In this document: in pieces, positions 25,527-34,248 of the stretch
How the letters are laid out: every line of letters begins with the position of its first letter
How positions within the stretch are numbered: position 1 is the stretch's first letter
Source: Pirellulales bacterium
Lineage (GTDB): Bacteria > Planctomycetota > Planctomycetia > Pirellulales > UBA7805
Length of the DNA stretch: 43,681 nucleotides
Direction of reading: 5' to 3'
NCBI GenBank assembly: GCA_030751095.1
Contig: JASMGX010000003.1
Location: forward strand, 7,366-51,046
The notes under the pieces: generated by a model
Told to the model about the DNA's origin: nothing
Database searches by the model: none
What the model saw: the letters and a program-made list of their open reading frames with translations, nothing else
Position numbers and translations under genes: made by a program

Positions 25527-26630
25527 CTAGGGCAAGCGGGCCGATTCCCGTTGCCCCGTATTGCCACAGCTTTGGCAGGTCGGCAGCAGACTGTGGCGGA
25601 TCTCGCCACACTGCGAGCACTTTTCATACAGCCCCGTTGAACAGGTGGGACAGGTATATGCGGTTTCATTTGCGGTTTGTTCGGCAGAAGAGGGGGCCAT
25701 TTTTTTGATTGTTCGACGGGTCCAGAAGCGGTACTTGAGCGGCCCGCGACGGATAGGATAGGCACAGATCGGGCAGAAAAAAAACTCGTAGGCTTCCCGG
25801 TACTGCCGCAACAACCAGTCTTTCTTCGGGAAGGCCATCATCCGCAGCAAGTAGACGAGAATCCGCACCACGATCGCCAGGGCGGTAAGAATCAGCACGT
25901 ACTTGAAATAGCGCGATGGGAAATGCTCGTGCATCACCACGGCCACCTTGAGCACCACGGCGATTCCAAAAGCATAGATCAGCGGTGTATAGGTGCCACC
26001 GCGGAATTTAAAAAAGAGAACCATCGTCACGAGCAACAGCGGCAGCAGCAGTGCAAGCTTGAACATTGCGATTTTAAATTCATGCTGATCCCACAGGCGA
26101 TAATATTGTTCCTTGATCGGTTTGCGCAACTTTTCAATTTCCGTCTCCAGAGCGCGCCCCCCATCCTCCAAATGGGTAAGCTCTTCGTTGAGTTGGACGA
26201 TGGCCTGATTCAATAACTGGTATTGTTTCTGGTTTGCCAGAAAACGCCGTTGGCTCTCGGCCAGCGCCTGCTTCTCCTCCGCAGAAGGTGTCACATTCTT
26301 CTGTAGGTTCAATCGCTGGAACTCGAGAAGCTGGTTCATGGTTTTCTGAGAGCTGCTTGTACTGTCGCGCAACAGTGTCTGCCGTTGGCTCTGTGCAGAT
26401 ATTTGCCGCTTGATCTCCGCCACCTGGTCCCCGAGCGACTTTTGTTTCTCTATCAGACCCGGATCGAGTAACTCCTTTTCAAATTTTTCGTAATTGGGTC
26501 CGGGCCAGCTACCGATATCGTTCACCACAAACCCGAGCAGCCAGAAACAGAGAATTCCCATGATCACACTGAACAACATGATCAGAAATCGATGTGTCCA
26601 GGGACCTTTGTTTTTGTGTTTTATGTTCAT
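25527..26630 (-). CDS. Membrane protein with coiled coil and C-terminal zinc ribbons
   Basis: A 367-aa inner-membrane protein. One N-terminal helix (about 16-37, FLIMLFSVIMGILCFWLLGFVV) is followed by a long charged coiled coil (about 50-180) rich in Gln, Glu, Lys and Leu. Three hydrophobic helices lie at about 188-262. The C-terminal cytoplasmic region holds cysteine pairs: CPIC (about 288), CPTC, CSQC and CQSC, which fit two or more zinc ribbons of the rubredoxin/DUF7577 kind. I recall similar planctomycete proteins carrying misleading labels such as serine endopeptidase; no protease motif is seen here. The gene is about 110 bp upstream of lpdA on the same strand, and the function is unknown. 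Confidence 0.7.
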   Translation of the reverse strand: MNIKHKNKGPWTHRFLIMLFSVIMGILCFWLLGFVVNDIGSWPGPNYEKFEKELLDPGLIEKQKSLGDQVAEIKRQISAQSQRQTLLRDSTSSSQKTMNQLLEFQRLNLQKNVTPSAEEKQALAESQRRFLANQKQYQLLNQAIVQLNEELTHLEDGGRALETEIEKLRKPIKEQYYRLWDQHEFKIAMFKLALLLPLLLVTMVLFFKFRGGTYTPLIYAFGIAVVLKVAVVMHEHFPSRYFKYVLILTALAIVVRILVYLLRMMAFPKKDWLLRQYREAYEFFFCPICAYPIRRGPLKYRFWTRRTIKKMAPSSAEQTANETAYTCPTCSTGLYEKCSQCGEIRHSLLPTCQSCGNTGQRESARLP

Positions 26631-26792: not shown

Positions 26793-27437
26793 CTAGTTCT
26801 GTTCCAGTTTCAGCGAGGCTGGTTGACCACCGGTCAACCATGGAGGCATGAAGTTCCTAGGGAGAATCTGCCCCACGGCAACCGCCAACCCGACCACCGC
26901 ACCGACCAGGTGGACCAACGGAACCGGAACGAACAAGTGGGACGAACCACGGACGAAGATGGTGCCGTTGGTGTAAAATTCCCAGCCGATCTTAAGAACC
27001 ATCCCCAGCAGGAGCAGCCCGGTCATCACTGTCCGGCCGTGACGGCCCTCCCGACAGCTTTGAGCGCACATCATCACACCCAAGAAGGCAAACAGGGCCG
27101 TGTCGAGTCCACTCAGTCCACGGTAGGTTGTAATCTCCGGCATCAGCAGCCAGACCGCAGCGGGAATCAGAACCGCTGAAACACCGAGACAGGCAAGCGT
27201 GGCCATTCGGTGACGACGCTCGCAAATGACGCCAAGAACGGCGAATACCACCGTATCCCACACAAGGTGTTCAAATCCGAAGTGGGCCAGATGTCCGGTC
27301 AGTATCCGCCACCAGTCTCCGGCACCCACCGCGACGCGATCAAATTCCAACACCGCGGACGCGCCCGGCCAGAGTGCCACCACCAGACTGGCCACAGCGA
27401 TCGTTGTCGTCACCTGCCAACGGCTCGTCGTATTCAT
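26793..27437 (-). CDS. rrtA: Rhombosortase-like rhomboid intramembrane serine protease
   Basis: A 214-aa polytopic membrane protein of the rhomboid superfamily, rhombosortase branch, which cleaves and processes proteins carrying a C-terminal GlyGly-CTERM signal. The start ATG 27437 has AAAGGA 6 bp away. The family marks are visible: the loop-helix WWRILTGHLAHFGFEHL (about 42-58), the nucleophile motif YRGLSGLDTALF with Ser109, and the catalytic His176 in VPLVHLVGA, about 67 residues later as expected for a Ser-His dyad. In typical members, HLxxN follows the second helix start; here the segment is HLVWD, so the asparagine is replaced by Asp. Its likely substrate is the VIT/vWA protein encoded just upstream on the same strand, which ends in a GlyGly-CTERM-like tail. 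Confidence 0.85.
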   Translation of the reverse strand: MNTTSRWQVTTTIAVASLVVALWPGASAVLEFDRVAVGAGDWWRILTGHLAHFGFEHLVWDTVVFAVLGVICERRHRMATLACLGVSAVLIPAAVWLLMPEITTYRGLSGLDTALFAFLGVMMCAQSCREGRHGRTVMTGLLLLGMVLKIGWEFYTNGTIFVRGSSHLFVPVPLVHLVGAVVGLAVAVGQILPRNFMPPWLTGGQPASLKLEQN

Positions 27438-27508
27438 GGTTCATCCTTTAGATTGTTTTTTGTTTTGCTTGTACGGGAACACCGGCACCCCGACCCTTCC
27501 CACCAAAA

Positions 27509-27553
27509 TGGTACGCCGGCCCACCCGACCTGCGGGCAGTTGCCGACGTACCA
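27509..27553 (-). promoter_or_regulatory. Long RNA hairpin between the VIT/vWA and rhombosortase genes
   Basis: TGGTACGCCGGC (27509-27520) and GCCGACGTACCA (27542-27553) are inverted with one mismatch. In minus-strand RNA the mismatch becomes a U-G pair, giving a continuous 12-bp stem with a 21-nt GC-rich loop that can pair further. Only four U residues follow soon after, so it may be a leaky terminator, processing site or stability element that lowers protease expression relative to its substrate. Confidence 0.55.
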
Positions 27554-27579
27554 TCATTCTGGCAGGTAATCTGTCACGG

Positions 27580-29757
27580 CTAGGCTTCTATCCCATCATC
27601 ACTGGACTTTTTACCCGTGGACTTCCTGCGGCGCAGTCGCCTGGCCAGCGCGGCGCCGGCCAGACCAAGGGCAATCGCGCCACTGAACGGGTCGATCGCG
27701 CCACCACCACCGCTACTACGATTGCCAGAACGACTACCCGGTGTCACGATATCAAATCCGCTCGGACGGTTGCCGGACGTCGGTGGACGCCCTATTTCTG
27801 GCTGCGAGATGGTTTTCACAACCACAGGCTTTTTATTGGCCGCGTGTTCGGCCGGTTCGTTGAGCGGTTGGATCTGGTCCAGTGTCCGTTCACGCAATTG
27901 TGCAAGTTCTTTGTTGACAATCTCGCGACCAGATCGGTCGCGAACGATACGATTCGCGTTGCGTCGTTTGATCTTCCAACGCTGATATTCGGCGTCGTTT
28001 TCCAACACGATAAACGAGGCGTACTGACTGATGATGGAATACTCCTCACAAAGTCGAATGATCTCGTTCGTATCCATCTGGGTTCCCAACCGGCCAGCAC
28101 GCATCAACTGCTCGACCCTTCGATAGGCCCACATCCGTTCGATTTCGGAATTGCCAGCGGTTTTTTTCGGAAAATCCACCTCGACGCTCTGATCGACTGC
28201 CTGACCGAGCACTTCACCCTTGAAGGTGACAGACCCGGTACCACCGTTCTTGTAGCGTCCGTAGAGACGCAGTGGCGCCCCGTAAAAGAGATTGGGTAAT
28301 TCTTTAGGTTCCAGGTCGTAGACTTCGACGCCGTCGAAGGTGAAGTTCACATTCGTGGCAGCCGGACGCAATAACTTACGACGGAAGGCGGTAGCCGCCC
28401 TTTCAAAATCATCCTCCTGCGAAATAAAATCGGCGATACCGCCCGCCTTCTGGGCCAGTTGATTGAGGATCGGCCGGTTCACCTCGTTACCTACTCCGAT
28501 ACAGAACACCCGTGACCCGGCGGGTCTCTGGTCGATCGCACGCAACAGTTCCTGTTGCTCCGCTTGCCCGGTCATTCCGTCCGACAGGACCACAATGTTG
28601 AGTACGCGGTCAGGATCGTCGTAACGATAGGCGGCGCTCACTGCAGGCCATAGCGATGTTCCACCCCGCGCCTTCTGCTGGGCTAGAAATTCCGACGCCT
28701 GTTGTTGTGTCTCCTTGCTCACTGCTTGAAGACTGGCCCACAAAGGGTTTGGTGAAATGTTGAACGCCATCATCTCGAAACGATCCTGGGGGCCGAGCGA
28801 TTCAATAAATGCCTGCAACGAATTTCGCGACATTCGCATTTTTCCGTCGTTGGCCATGCTTCCAGAAACGTCCAGGATGAACACGTAGTCCATACCGTGG
28901 TTGATCTCTTCCAACTCCTGGCCAGCCGTAAGCGTGAGTTGAAAGTAGCCGTCTTCACCACCTTGCTTGGAAGTGATGATATCAAAGCCGGTTCGTGGAC
29001 GTTCGGTATCGAAGTGCAACACCACGTCACGACTCAAGTCGCCCCCGCTGACTTCCAAACTCGCCTGGCAATAATTCGGCGAGTGTTCCACTGTGATAAA
29101 TTGATCCGTGTGCGACGGGCTACTCAGGCGCACGATCGGCACCTCGCTCTTGACATCCAACGAAAGAGCAAACTTACCACTGGTACGCTGGTCGATGGCA
29201 CCGGTCCTCGCAGTGCCTGACGAAACGGTCGTGGCCAATGGATAAACATACGTTGCCTCGTCATGGTCGAAATCGAGTTCCTGATAATAGGTCACCTTGA
29301 TGCGCTGTTCGGCGTTTGCCGCGATCGGATAGATCCGCATCTCGAAACGCTTGTAATCGACCTGTTCCAACAGCCCCGGATCGACCTTTGTCGCTTTATA
29401 GCTTTCGTAAATCTCCCGGGCACGCTTCTTCTCGACCACTTCGCCGATCATTTCCTTGCCGTTGATCCACATGCTGAAGTTGGCCACGCTAGCTCCTGAA
29501 GGGACAGGAAACGTGTAGAGTGCCTCGACCATCCGGTTTTCCTTGTTCACAAAAATTTGTTCCAGTTCGGTCACCGCAACGCCGTTATTGACGACAACCT
29601 TGACGTTGTGTTCCTTGATTTCGAGTTCGCCACCGAACCTGCCTTCGGCCACCAACAGCCCGGCGGCATGTAACGAGCTCGACCCGCCAACGGCGAGCAG
29701 TGTCAGCGTGACGAGAACCGTAAGAGTGCGTGTTAGGAAACGTATTTGGGTAGACAT
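27580..29757 (-). CDS. Secreted VIT/von Willebrand A protein with a GlyGly-CTERM-type sorting tail
   Basis: A 725-aa surface-directed protein. ATG 29757 has GGAGG six bases away, making it better than the GTG one codon earlier. A signal peptide (about 1-32) is followed by a VIT domain (about 37-165, from GGELEIKEHNVKVVV to KVTYYQELDFD) and a vWA domain (about 290-455). The metal-ion site is complete: DVSGS at 296-300, the GGTS threonine and the SDGMTG aspartate. The C-terminus has GGGG at 683-686, a hydrophobic helix (691-705, FSGAIALGLAGAALA) and the Arg cluster RRLRRR, then a further 14 residues. That layout matches the GlyGly-CTERM signal recognised by rhombosortase, which is encoded next. 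Transcription is probably from the sigma-54 site at 29809-29823. vWA/MIDAS proteins bind metal-dependent protein partners, so an adhesive or sensing role outside the cell is likely. Confidence 0.85.
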   Translation of the reverse strand: MSTQIRFLTRTLTVLVTLTLLAVGGSSSLHAAGLLVAEGRFGGELEIKEHNVKVVVNNGVAVTELEQIFVNKENRMVEALYTFPVPSGASVANFSMWINGKEMIGEVVEKKRAREIYESYKATKVDPGLLEQVDYKRFEMRIYPIAANAEQRIKVTYYQELDFDHDEATYVYPLATTVSSGTARTGAIDQRTSGKFALSLDVKSEVPIVRLSSPSHTDQFITVEHSPNYCQASLEVSGGDLSRDVVLHFDTERPRTGFDIITSKQGGEDGYFQLTLTAGQELEEINHGMDYVFILDVSGSMANDGKMRMSRNSLQAFIESLGPQDRFEMMAFNISPNPLWASLQAVSKETQQQASEFLAQQKARGGTSLWPAVSAAYRYDDPDRVLNIVVLSDGMTGQAEQQELLRAIDQRPAGSRVFCIGVGNEVNRPILNQLAQKAGGIADFISQEDDFERAATAFRRKLLRPAATNVNFTFDGVEVYDLEPKELPNLFYGAPLRLYGRYKNGGTGSVTFKGEVLGQAVDQSVEVDFPKKTAGNSEIERMWAYRRVEQLMRAGRLGTQMDTNEIIRLCEEYSIISQYASFIVLENDAEYQRWKIKRRNANRIVRDRSGREIVNKELAQLRERTLDQIQPLNEPAEHAANKKPVVVKTISQPEIGRPPTSGNRPSGFDIVTPGSRSGNRSSGGGGAIDPFSGAIALGLAGAALARRLRRRKSTGKKSSDDGIEA

Positions 29758-29808
29758 CACATTCCTCCTTTTTTGATAGATTGCCTGGTTACTACAGTAG
29801 CCAATAAA

Positions 29809-29823
29809 GCAAAGACCATGCCA
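29809..29823 (-). promoter_or_regulatory. Sigma-54 (-24/-12) promoter of the VIT/vWA-rhombosortase operon
   Basis: On the minus strand the sequence TGGCATGGTCTTTGC matches the sigma-54 consensus TGGCAC-N5-TTGC at all but one of the conserved positions, with the correct spacing. It is preceded by T and followed by T, as the extended consensus prefers. Transcription should start near 29797, leaving a 40-nt leader before ATG 29757. A sigma-54 activator gene lies on the other side of the same intergenic region. Confidence 0.8.
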
Positions 29824-29913
29824 AGCAGCCTGACAACACGCATAAAACGTTTTCCCAAAGGGACTTACGCCCGATCGATCAAGGCAGTGATGAACCTACA
29901 CGAACCATCGAGA

Positions 29914-29942
29914 TGTACATTTATTGAAGGCTGCTATACATT
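29914..29942 (+). promoter_or_regulatory. Possible sigma-70 promoter of the activator gene, inside the inverted repeat
   Basis: TGTACA (29914-29919) and TACATT (29937-29942), 17 bp apart, each match four of six consensus bases. If real, the activator's own promoter lies under its likely binding site, suggesting autoregulation. The match is weak. Confidence 0.25.
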
Positions 29943-29950
29943 AAATGTAC
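29915..29950. promoter_or_regulatory. 9-bp inverted repeat, likely enhancer site for the sigma-54 activator
   Basis: GTACATTTA (29915-29923) and TAAATGTAC (29942-29950) are exact inverted copies separated by 18 bp. The centre is about 135 bp upstream of the predicted sigma-54 start and about 88 bp before the activator gene. This is the usual position for an upstream activating sequence bound by a Fis-type helix-turn-helix dimer. Confidence 0.55.
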
Positions 29951-30020
29951 GTTTTGGCTGTGGACGATGGGCCCAGCGGTCGGGTGCAGACCCAGCCAGT
30001 CGTTCGGAAGGAGGGGTGAT

Positions 30021-31580
30021 ATGGCGGTCTTTTCCGAGGGCGAACATCGGTTTGTCGACGCACTGTCACGTTTGGCCTACGCCAATCCATTCTCGCCCGA
30101 GCGAATCAATCTGGAGCGGGAAGCACTGGGTGGAGATTTCAACGACCCATCGCCGGTCTGGAGCCAGCAAGTCGGCCTGGCCGACGATCGGCCCAACGTC
30201 CGTAAACTGGCCTCCCGGGCTGAACAACTGGCCAAGAAGATCCGAAAAAAACTCTGTGGCAAGGTCCCGGCGACTGACAGCGAGTTAGCGCTCTATCAGG
30301 ATCTTTGCTACTACGTACTCTACTATTGCTACTGGCCCAAAATGAACACAATGGTTGAACCCGCCTTGCGGGACGGCGCAACGTCCCCTTCTGGTAAGGT
30401 CGCATGGTGGAAACCCTACCGGGCCGATTTTGCTCACTACCTGGAGTTACCGGCACGGGAGTTACCATCTCGCGTTGAACCGGACCACCTGCTCGCCTGC
30501 TTCTTTCAGATTCGCCAGGCGTTCCATCACATCTTCACGTTCCTGGTAGGTGGTTCGATGCCGGCAGCCCGCCTGCGGGCCGCAGTGTGGCAGTCCATTT
30601 TTACACATGACATGCGTCGTTACCGCCGCACGCTGTACCAACGAATGGGTACGATTACCACGCTGGTAACGGGACCCTCCGGCACGGGAAAGGAACTGGT
30701 CGCCCGCGCAGTCGGCATGTCCCGGTACATTCCCTTCGACGCCAAAACCGAGACCTTCAGTGATGGTTTCTGTGGTGCGTTTCACACCTTGAATCTTTCG
30801 GCTTTGTCACCAACGCTCATCGAATCGGACCTGTTCGGCCACCGCCGCGGGGCCTACACCGGTGCGTTGGAAGATCGGGCGGGCTGGCTGGAGAAATGCC
30901 AGCCGCTCGGCACCATGTTCCTGGATGAAATTGGGGAGTTGGATGCGGCGATTCAGGTGAAACTATTGCGTGTGTTACAGAACCGCACGTTTCAACGCAT
31001 CGGTGAAAGCGAGGACCGCCACTTCCATGGCAAGCTGATTGTCGCAACGAACCGGGACCTGGCCACCGAAATGCACGCCGGTCGTTTCCGCGAAGACTTT
31101 TATTATCGCCTCTGTTCCGACATGATCACCACCCCCAGCCTCCGCGAGCAACTTGCCGACGAATATGGCAATCTGCGGAACCTAATCCTGTTCATCGCCC
31201 GTCGGGAGATCGATGACGAGGCAGAAGCTTTGGCTGACGAGGTCCTGCACTGGATCGACGAGAACCTGGGTTGTGACTATGCCTGGAAGGGTAACATTCG
31301 CGAACTGGAACAGTGTGTACGCAATGTCATGATCCGACGGGACTATCGTCCGACGGCCAGCGGGGAAGCGGGACCGCAGGAGCGTCTTATTACCAGGATG
31401 ACTGCGGGCACCCTCACCGCTGAGGAATTGTTACGTCAATACTGCACGCTAATCTACGCAAAGCTGGAAAGTTACGAGGCAACTGCCGGTCAACTCGGCC
31501 TGGACCGTCGCACCGTCAAGAGCAAGATCGACCGGAAGTTACTGGCCGAATTAAAATCCCCCAACGGCGGGACAGACTGA
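30021..31580 (+). CDS. Sigma-54-dependent transcriptional activator (AAA+) without a receiver domain
   Basis: A 519-aa bacterial enhancer-binding protein. ATG 30021 has AAGGAGGGG just upstream. The N-terminal 200 residues are an alpha-rich region I do not recognise; it lacks the phosphate-accepting aspartate layout of a response-regulator receiver and any GAF or PAS signature. The AAA+ domain (about 205-430) has Walker A GPSGTGKE (218-225), the sigma-54 contact loop GAYTGA (277-282, Tyr for the usual Phe) and Walker B GTMFLDE (297-303). It also has the arginine-finger region (NRTFQRIGES, FREDFYYRL). A C-terminal Fis-like helix-turn-helix (about 478-510, TAGQLGLDRRTVKSKID) binds DNA. It is divergent from the VIT/vWA gene whose promoter is sigma-54-like, so that operon is its probable target. 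Confidence 0.88.
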   Translation: MAVFSEGEHRFVDALSRLAYANPFSPERINLEREALGGDFNDPSPVWSQQVGLADDRPNVRKLASRAEQLAKKIRKKLCGKVPATDSELALYQDLCYYVLYYCYWPKMNTMVEPALRDGATSPSGKVAWWKPYRADFAHYLELPARELPSRVEPDHLLACFFQIRQAFHHIFTFLVGGSMPAARLRAAVWQSIFTHDMRRYRRTLYQRMGTITTLVTGPSGTGKELVARAVGMSRYIPFDAKTETFSDGFCGAFHTLNLSALSPTLIESDLFGHRRGAYTGALEDRAGWLEKCQPLGTMFLDEIGELDAAIQVKLLRVLQNRTFQRIGESEDRHFHGKLIVATNRDLATEMHAGRFREDFYYRLCSDMITTPSLREQLADEYGNLRNLILFIARREIDDEAEALADEVLHWIDENLGCDYAWKGNIRELEQCVRNVMIRRDYRPTASGEAGPQERLITRMTAGTLTAEELLRQYCTLIYAKLESYEATAGQLGLDRRTVKSKIDRKLLAELKSPNGGTD

Positions 31581-31722
31581 AGCGTCGTCGGGGAGATTAA
31601 GGACAATCGATTATTGTATCTACACACCCATAAATTACATATCAGAATCAGGCCACTTATCTAAAAAATGGCCCCGGCGTGTGTTAGTCTGCACCGACGA
31701 ATTGTTCCTGAAGGAATCCGTA

Positions 31723-32562
31723 GTGGCAGAAAGAAAGTGGATGGCCTCGCTCGCCGGAAAAACGTTACTGATCACAGGCGCAAGTCGCGGCATTGGCCGC
31801 GCCATTGCCCTGAGGGCGGCCCGCGACGGTGCCGCGGTCGCGGTCCTTGGCAAGACCAACCATCCCGATAAGCGGCTTCCGGGGACGGTGGTGCAAACGG
31901 TACAAGAGATCGAGGCTTCCGGCGGCCGGGGCTTAGCGTGCATCACAGACATCCGCTTTGAAGAACAGATCCTCGAAGCGGTCGGGCAGTGTGTCGACAC
32001 ATTTGGTGGAATTGATATTCTAGTGAACAATGCCAGTGCCATCTTTCTGGCCGGCACGCTCCAGACGCCCGCCAAGCGATACGATTTGATGCAGGCGGTG
32101 AATGTCCGGGCCACTTTTCTCGCCAGCCAGGCCTGTTTGCCGTATTTGCTGAAGGCCGAGAATCCCCACATCCTCAATCTTGCACCGCCGCTGAACATGG
32201 AGCCCCGCTGGTTTGCCGGCCATGGAGCCTATACGATGGCCAAATACGGAATGAGTATGTGCGTGCTCGGGATGGCCGCCGAGTTTGAAGAACAAGCCGT
32301 AGCGGTCAACGCCCTCTGGCCCCGTACAGCAATTGCCACCGCGGCCATCCGCAACCTGCTCGGTGGCGACGAGGCGATGGACCGGTGCCGCAAGCCGGAA
32401 ATTGTCGCCGATGCGGCACACGCCATTCTCTGTCGCCCGGCGGCAGAGTGCAGCGGGAATTTTTTTATTGATGAGGAGGTCCTTGCATCGGAAGGAGTGC
32501 GCGATTTTTCAACCTATGCGGTAAACTCCGATGCAGACCTGCTGCCCGATTTTTTTCTCTGA
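31723..32562 (+). CDS. HSDL2-like short-chain dehydrogenase/reductase
   Basis: Cytoplasmic NAD(P)-dependent oxidoreductase of the SDR superfamily, 279 aa. I chose GTG 31723 because AAGGA (31711-31715) is 7 bp away; ATG 31741 is an alternative. The cofactor motif is LLITGASRGIGRAIAL, the structural NNAS motif is DILVNNASAIF, and the active-site Tyr-Lys pair is GAYTMAKYGMSM. The length, the GTVVQTVQEIEASGG stretch and the ending DADLLPDFFL closely resemble what I recall of the SDR domain of animal HSDL2, an enzyme linked to fatty-acid metabolism in mitochondria and peroxisomes. The SCP2 lipid-binding domain of HSDL2 is absent. The substrate is unknown; a fatty acyl or sterol-like compound is a guess. 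It is followed after 24 bp by the next gene on the same strand. Confidence 0.85.
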   Translation: MAERKWMASLAGKTLLITGASRGIGRAIALRAARDGAAVAVLGKTNHPDKRLPGTVVQTVQEIEASGGRGLACITDIRFEEQILEAVGQCVDTFGGIDILVNNASAIFLAGTLQTPAKRYDLMQAVNVRATFLASQACLPYLLKAENPHILNLAPPLNMEPRWFAGHGAYTMAKYGMSMCVLGMAAEFEEQAVAVNALWPRTAIATAAIRNLLGGDEAMDRCRKPEIVADAAHAILCRPAAECSGNFFIDEEVLASEGVRDFSTYAVNSDADLLPDFFL

Positions 32563-32586
32563 ATGCTGTCAAGGAAATAACGAACG

Positions 32587-34248
32587 ATGATAAAATATGT
32601 TGCTCCGAATAGTCGGCTAACTGCTGCGGCCAAGAAGCGACGTGTGTTGCTCGTTGCCAATGGCGATCTTCGCCTTTCGGCCAACCAGAACTGTTGGGCA
32701 GCCCAGGAGAAGATGGAAGAAGATCTTGCCCGTAGCGTGGCAGCGGCTGGCTATGAACTGGTCCGCGCCCATCCCTACAAGAAAAAAGAAAAACACGGTT
32801 TTATCAGTTCCCAAAAAGAGGGCATGCAGGTCTTCGCGGGCATTGATCCGAAGATGAAACTCATCGTCGCCGAGGCGGTCTGGCAATATTCGCACCATCT
32901 GCTTCACGGCTTGATTTCCCGCGAAGGGCCGATTCTGACCGTAGCCAATTGGTCCGGAACCTGGCCCGGACTGGTCGGGATGCTCAACCTCAACGGTTCG
33001 CTCACCAAGGCGGGAGTACCGTATTCGACCCTCTGGGGCGAGGATTTTGGTGACCGGCAGTTTGTAGCCGCTCTCAAAAAGTGGCTTCAGACCGGTTCAT
33101 ATCGGCATCGAACAGGTCATGTGCGCGCACTTTCGCGGCTGAAGGTACCCGCCGCAACCCGCCGGGTGGGAGAAAAGCTGGCCCGCGAACTCCAGCACGA
33201 TAAAGCGATCATGGGTGTTTTCGATGAGGGGTGTATGGGAATGTTCAATGCCATCATCCCCGACCATCTGCTCAATGCGACCGGCGTCTACAAAGAACGG
33301 CTTAGCCAGTCGGCACTTTACTACGAATCGACCCAGGTAAGCGACCGGGAGGCGAAGGGGGTACGGAACTGGATGGACCGCAAGGGAATGCAGTTTCAGA
33401 CCGGCACGCGACACAAGGAACTGACGAACGCCCAGATCCTTGACCAATGCAAGATGTACGTAGCAGCGCTGCGAATTGCCGACGATTTTGGTTGCCATAC
33501 GATCGGTATCCAGTACCAACAGGGGCTCAAGGATTTGATGCCGGCAAGCGATCTTGTCGAAGGAACTCTCAACAACCGGGATCGCCCACCGGTCAAGAGT
33601 CGTGATGGCCGGCGGACACTCTATGCCGGTGAGCCGCTACCGCACTTTAATGAAGTGGATGAATGTGCAGGTCTCGACGGACTGATGACGTACCGCGTTC
33701 ACAAAGCCTTGGGACAGCCTGTGGAAAACACGCTGCACGACTTGCGCTGGGGAGATTGGGATCAGAGCGGTACGGTCGAGGACTATGTCTGGGTCTTTGA
33801 AATCAGTGGGAGCGTCCCCCCTGCGCACCTGATCGGTGGCTGGAAAGGGGCGACGAGTGAGCGCCAGCCAAATATGTTCTTCCCGTCCGGAGGTGGAACC
33901 ATCAAGGGAATCTCTAAACCGGGAGAGATTGTCTGGTCGCGAATCTTTGTGGAGGATGGCCGCTTGAAGATGGATTTGGGTCGTGCTGGGGTGGTCAAAT
34001 TGCCCTTGTCCGAGACAGAGCGCCGCTGGCAGGCCACCACGTCCCAGTGGCCGATCATGCATGCGGTAACCTATGGGGTCAGTCGCGACCAGATGATGGC
34101 ACGTCACAAGAGCAACCATATCCAGGTTGCGTACGCGCGATCGGCCGCCGATGCAGATCGTGCCATGCTCGCCAAGGCAAGCATGGCCGCCGCACTCGGC
34201 CTTGAGGTAGCAATTTGCGGAACAGGAAAGAATGGACGCACCTGGTGA
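32587..34248 (+). CDS. L-fucose/arabinose isomerase-like protein
   Basis: A 553-aa cytoplasmic protein. The overall pattern resembles the fucose/arabinose isomerase superfamily: a Rossmann-like start ([13 protein letters not shown]), [13 protein letters not shown], a [22 protein letters not shown] segment, [13 protein letters not shown], and a late domain with [21 protein letters not shown] and a histidine-rich [12 protein letters not shown] near the end. In true FucI enzymes, Glu, Asp and His residues bind Mn2+; E and D candidates lie at [10 protein letters not shown], and the terminal RHKSNH is like the family's metal-side end. I recall such planctomycete proteins being labelled fucose isomerase. 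It may be an isomerase of another sugar. It follows the HSDL2-like gene by 24 bp and is probably co-transcribed. Confidence 0.6.

Follow-up and report, generated by a model that had tools for sequence, protein, structure and literature searches.

Rhombosortases and GlyGly-CTERM proteins were described as pairs by Haft 2011 (PMC3237569), who listed a pair of Rhodopirellula baltica and targets with vWA and VIT domains; sigma-54 control was not reported, and the word "sigma" is absent from the paper. For VesB of Vibrio cholerae, cleavage and lipid conjugation were shown experimentally: rhombosortase exposes a glycine, which is joined to a glycerophosphoethanolamine-containing moiety (PMC6219818). 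A connection between sigma-54 and C-terminal sorting is known from the PEP-CTERM/exosortase regulon, for which PrsK/PrsR and sigma-54 control of PEP-CTERM genes were reported (Haft 2006, PMC1569441), and sigma-54 has been argued to control mainly the cell exterior (Francke 2011, PMC3162934). A 2025 survey of sigma-54 regulons that includes Planctomycetia does not mention von Willebrand or rhomboid targets, and our literature search found no paper joining GlyGly-CTERM with rpoN. Here, we analyzed a 43.7-kb stretch of a Pirellulales genome (43,681 nucleotides of contig JASMGX010000003.1; hereafter, the window), in which the gene for a sigma-54 activator lies divergent from genes for a vWA/VIT protein and a rhombosortase. 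The activator, its operators, the vWA protein, and the rhombosortase most likely constitute a sigma-54-controlled module dedicated to surface anchoring.

The activator and its divergent genes

The features of the locus are listed in Table 1. The AAA+ domain of the activator carries the Walker motifs and the GAYTGA motif, which assign it to the sigma-54 enhancer-binding protein core, as a first-pass annotation made from the sequence had recognized. GA[FY]TGA was retained in the aligned relatives, and residues ~200-450 were alignable to the structures of NifA, ZraR, FleQ, and PspF. The start codon is probably at 30021 rather than at 29967, with the Shine-Dalgarno sequence AAGGAGG (30008-30014) located 6 nt upstream. 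Pfam scans found no receiver domain. The first 210 residues matched no Pfam family and no convincing PDB sequence; an AlphaFold2 model of this domain, with four sequences as input, was all-helical at moderate confidence (pLDDT 72), and a fold search with this moderate model gave no match (best E 1.1). This helical domain is presumably the signal-responsive part. Profile matches to the C-terminal helix-turn-helix were weak (best E 0.011), and the motif YEATAxxLGLDRRTVKxK was conserved among relatives. The closest named relative of the activator belonged to a metagenome-assembled genome (MAG) of Planctomycetota (54%). The genome that contains the window also has an rpoN gene (8e-64) and six further enhancer-binding-protein-like loci.

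The target operon of PspF is transcribed divergently. With PspF and other receiver-less enhancer-binding proteins, the activator shares the AAA+ core, the GAFTGA-type motif, the lack of a receiver domain, and a divergent target operon. Unlike these proteins, it has the 210-aa unclassified helical N-terminal domain, and it scored 138 bits with the pspF model TIGR02974 (cut-off 443.6). It also differs from PrsR, a response regulator with a receiver domain, whose model TIGR02915 gave 160.9 against a cut-off of 502.6. The locus resembles the PEP-CTERM regulon in having a sigma-54 -24/-12 promoter and an upstream activator motif before genes for C-terminally sorted surface proteins, whereas the sorting enzyme and the gene arrangement differ.

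The tail of the vWA protein consists of a Gly-rich motif, a hydrophobic stretch, and a basic end, which is the architecture of GlyGly-CTERM. DxSxS was kept by all 27 vWA proteins of the comparison, and GGGGA[ILF]DP was present in most of their tails. As in the pairs of Haft 2011 (PMC3237569), a TIGR03902 rhombosortase adjoins the tailed target; unlike in those pairs, TIGR03501 misses the tail, which has the form GGGGA[ILF]DP. We describe this tail as a GlyGly-like variant and did not file it as a TIGR03501 member. Among the 25 rhombosortase homologs, GLSG was found in 24, the remaining one being a fragment, and YRGLSG and a His were conserved. The combination of a vWA protein with a sortase-like protease had been proposed for the range 27580-31580; both proteins were identified, and the rhombosortase gene falls outside that range. 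A VIT and vWA protein whose gene adjoins that of a dedicated sorting enzyme is also known as the marine sortase target TIGR03788 with the sortase TIGR03784. In contrast to that system, the score here was 245 bits (TIGR03788 cut-off 551.7), and the neighbor is a rhombosortase, not an LPXTG sortase.

Table 1 Features of the locus. Positions refer to the window unless another locus (L) is named.
Feature	Position	Strand	Evidence
Sigma-54 enhancer-binding activator, receiver-less, 519 aa	30021-31580	+	Sigma54_activat 6.7e-45
Helical N-terminal domain of activator, unclassified, presumed sensory	30021-30650	+	conserved in 28 aligned relatives
GAYTGA sigma-54 contact motif	30849-30866	+	from sequence; GA[FY]TGA in relatives
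Operator dyad 1, GTACATTTATTGAAG	29915-29929		13.0 bits, de novo motif
Operator dyad 2, ATACATTAAATGTAC	29936-29950		21.6 bits, de novo motif
Sigma-54 -24/-12 promoter, TGGCATGGTCTTTGCT	29808-29823	-	0 mismatches to TGGCAYRN4TTGCW; predicted +1 near 29797
vWA/VIT exported protein, presumed rhombosortase substrate	27580-29757	-	VIT 6.4e-30; VWA_3 9.4e-24; metal ion-dependent adhesion site (MIDAS) DxSxS
vWA C-terminal sorting tail, SSGGGGAIDP-hydrophobic-RRLRRRK	27580-27717	-	conserved in orthologs
Intercistronic hairpin, vWA/rhombosortase spacer	27438-27579	-	z -2.93; hairpins also in four relatives
Spacer hairpins in relatives	L066 10696-10800; L078 11698-11790; L083 5615-5728; L094 7480-7607		
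Rhombosortase (rhomboid-family sorting protease)	26793-27437	-	TIGR03902 112.5 bits, curated cut-off 84
ZNR, coiled-coil membrane protein with C-terminal zinc ribbon	25527-26630	-	orthologs near activator in L078 and L101
ZNR recurrences near activator	L078 8091-9269; L101 3636-4802; L181 702-1829		

Conservation of the divergent layout

The neighborhoods of the activator relatives were mapped with family hidden Markov models built for this analysis. The vWA gene was divergent from the activator gene in 22 loci, which represent 17 family-level groups and two phyla (window, L066, L078, L079, L080, L083, L103, L147, L150, L154, L156-L161, L164, L165, L173-L175, and L184). Opitutaceae EW11 (Verrucomicrobiota) has this layout, and L103 is a locus of Opitutaceae. 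The rhombosortase gene joined the vWA gene in 20 of the 22 loci; in the two exceptions, L165 and L173, the contig ends there, and the score in L184 was weak. The first-pass annotation had named the lack of this arrangement and of its two sites in relatives as what would refute its proposal. The arrangement recurred as described above, and both the -24/-12 and the operator sites were conserved, the box following the vWA gene even where it is unlinked.

Searches for the N-terminal domain of the activator detected it in 27/147 relatives and, at 1e-30, in 43/392 genomes from the phylum; it also occurred in Sumerlaeota and Verrucomicrobiota. A scan of genome contigs was dominated by AAA+ matches and yielded no more than four true relatives. 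In L102 (2161-3750), from a Verrucomicrobia MAG, an activator homolog is interrupted by an in-frame stop.

The -24/-12 promoter

The near-consensus site that had been noted before the divergent operon shows GG at -24 and GC at -12 with the correct spacing. No other site of the window comes within one mismatch of the consensus, and 1.48 such sites were expected by chance; the count alone is unremarkable, and the significance of the site comes from its placement and conservation. The ATG at 29757 follows the predicted +1 by ~40 nt and is preceded by AAAGGAGG.

Conservation was assessed with the plain, untrained consensus in 66 activator upstream regions, with dinucleotide shuffles as controls. 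Sites with at most one mismatch occurred on the divergent strand in 23 of the 66 regions and on the activator strand in one (shuffles: mean 0.43, maximum 3); with at most two mismatches, the respective numbers were 37 and 7 (shuffles: 5.7). In the vWA loci alone, the core GGCAYN6YGC was present on the divergent strand in 12/22 and on the other strand in 0/22 (shuffles: mean 0.9, maximum 5), and a relaxed core was present in 18/22 versus 5, with 3.6 in shuffles.

The operator dyads

The perfect inverted repeat that the first-pass annotation had placed at enhancer distance was confirmed; it has 9-bp arms (29915-29950) and lies ~90-130 bp upstream of the -24/-12 box. An unseeded palindromic search of the 66 upstream regions yielded the motif GTACATTnAATGTAC, with a log-likelihood of 310 compared with 25.5 on shuffled input. 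The motif was present in nearly all of these regions and was frequently paired with a spacing of 21-22 nt. The window has two such 15-bp dyads, whose centers are 21 nt apart. A single long inverted repeat acting as one operator was rejected: comparative motif analysis resolved two tandem dyads, with one arm of the repeat corresponding to the left half of dyad 1 and the other to the right half of dyad 2.

A composite pattern of operator and promoter was searched in the 3.7-Mb genome of the window (82% complete), where it matched the window locus only. In genome G014, it matched only the promoter of C1, a membrane protein gene described below. Because of its strictness, this pattern would overlook weak sites.

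Unlinked vWA genes

In five genomes, a GG-tailed vWA gene is unlinked to the activator gene, which is located elsewhere in the genome. These loci were not used for training the matrix, and their starts were chosen heuristically. A sigma-54 box of at least 10 bits preceded all five genes: AATTGGCACTGCGATTGCTTTT in G009 (20.7 bits), and boxes of 17.0, 12.1, 10.9, and 16.1 bits in G119, G059, G165, and G191, respectively. By comparison, only one of 20 other vWA relatives, which lack a GG tail and come from activator-bearing genomes, reached 10 bits, and its spacing was wrong (5/5 versus 1/20, Fisher p ~1e-4, hand-computed). The gene in G059 is also preceded by the operator GTGCATTCAATGCAC and a second operator 22 nt away. 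A dyad pair spaced by 22 nt stands upstream of an unlinked vWA gene in L098. No sigma-54 box was detected in G117, which has a vWA-rhombosortase pair and in which the activator was not found.

The vWA homologs in L222 (G119) and L207 (G078) are 56-57% identical to that of the window and have PEP-CTERM-like tails in place of GG tails, an apparent swap of the sorting signal. Neither has a sigma-54 box above 10 bits.

Proposed mechanism and alternatives

The sequence itself shows the components, the match to the promoter consensus, the operators, and the conserved layout, which together suggest the following mechanism. The activator would bind the tandem dyads, centered ~125 and ~146 bp before the predicted start. 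For the subsequent steps, we infer by analogy with sigma-54 biology and with VesB of V. cholerae that the bound activator would loop to the -24/-12 complex, where ATP hydrolysis via the GAYTGA loop would remodel the closed RNA polymerase/sigma-54 complex. The vWA gene would then be transcribed, followed by the rhombosortase gene and probably also ZNR. The vWA protein would be exported with its GG tail retained in the inner membrane. At this tail, the rhombosortase would cleave the protein and transfer it to a membrane anchor, resulting in surface display. Since the operator is located between both genes, autoregulation of the activator gene is also probable.

Several observations weigh against the dedicated module. 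TIGR03501 gave no match to the vWA tail at E<=1. Even the relaxed box was not found at four vWA loci (L083, L103, L150, and L161), and several further ones have a degenerate -12 element with TGA or TGT replacing TGC. A matrix trained only on the C1 loci of the sister clade recognized 7/22 vWA loci at p<0.05, indicating that some of the vWA loci have a degenerate box. At L094 and L096, the operators that precede the unlinked vWA gene are weak, and a reversed control of the composite pattern also gave one match in the genome of the window. The four loci without a box, together with the ~1.5 sites with at most one mismatch expected in the window by chance, would be compatible with a fortuitous -24/-12 match and with another promoter for the vWA-rhombosortase genes. 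This explanation is highly improbable, as the conservation is specific to strand and position over 66 loci and the box persists before unlinked vWA genes. The dyads might instead serve another DNA-binding protein, or only the repression of the activator gene, with another enhancer-binding protein driving the divergent promoter. The six more enhancer-binding-protein-like loci in the genome and the position of the dyads near the start of the activator gene would fit this idea, but the motif tracks this activator family in nearly all 66 upstream regions and the dyad pair of L098 stands before an unlinked vWA gene, which make it rather unlikely.

An alternative that we regard as possible without favoring it is that the activator is a broader envelope regulator acting mainly at other promoters, and that the vWA-rhombosortase genes are one member of its regulon. 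Other divergent targets do exist (C1 in one clade, ZNR, and small membrane proteins), and GG-tailed vWA genes appear to be addressed in trans in five genomes. On the other hand, the composite pattern matched the window locus only in its own, 82% complete genome and the C1 promoter only in G014, and linkage to vWA is widespread and probably ancestral. The dedicated module remains our preferred reading. Comparison supports the sigma-54-regulated surface-display system that the first-pass annotation had suggested, with the restriction that the rhombosortase/vWA pair is one of several targets of the activator family and is replaced by C1 in the sister clade.

Activator tree and other divergent targets

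In the activator tree, which was rooted at the midpoint, the C1-linked loci formed one clade in 100% of bootstrap trees, and the vWA-linked loci were scattered and included the deepest branch. This distribution suggests that the vWA-rhombosortase linkage is probably ancestral and that C1 was a later exchange. In the vWA-type genomes, a search for C1 found it only in G007 and G009, unlinked. We lean toward the view that the activator represents an undescribed receiver-less family that is distributed among Planctomycetota, Verrucomicrobiota, and Sumerlaeota and has a sensory domain and an operator that are both new. This family would ancestrally control rhombosortase-anchored vWA proteins and would have been rewired to C1 in one clade.

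No link between sigma-54 and a rhombosortase/vWA pair had been known to the first-pass annotation. The link itself is new; the pair has been known since 2011 (PMC3237569), and the novelty is narrower than claimed because a link between sigma-54 and surface sorting is known for the exosortase system (PMC1569441). As judged from sequence comparison, what is new is the activator subfamily, whose helical N-terminal domain is unclassified, together with the operator and the connection of this subfamily to rhombosortase. If the model is true, sigma-54 control of C-terminal surface sorting arose at least twice, with exosortase and with rhombosortase, and this second case would fit the exterior-control proposal (PMC3162934). 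The rhombosortase system would gain a candidate on-switch, and the timing of vWA display could be tested via a single activator and a single promoter. The activator family and its conserved operator would also aid the reading of regulons in poorly studied phyla.

C1 is a polytopic membrane protein of ~600-985 aa, usually ending in VLKWR, without a Pfam match. It replaces vWA as the divergent target in L069, L071, L072, L074-L076, L081, L082, L084-L090, and L092. The divergent genes at L149, L152, L153, L168, L178, and L179, read by eye, include those for small membrane proteins, for a membrane protein of 1418 aa, and for radical-SAM-like proteins.

Spacer hairpins and neighboring genes

Strong hairpins were predicted in all five vWA-rhombosortase spacers folded (z -2.0 to -8.1), and their sequences differ. 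No Rfam family was found in the region. Our guess is that the hairpin is a leaky terminator or a stoichiometry control that lowers the protease relative to its substrate. ZNR is probably the third gene of the vWA-rhombosortase operon. Its ortholog in L078 sits between the activator and vWA genes, and it is divergent from the activator in both L078 and L101. Beyond the activator gene, at 31681-34248, the window encodes an SDR oxidoreductase of family PRK08278 and then a protein in which L-fucose isomerase domains were weakly matched (Fucose_iso_C 6e-7).

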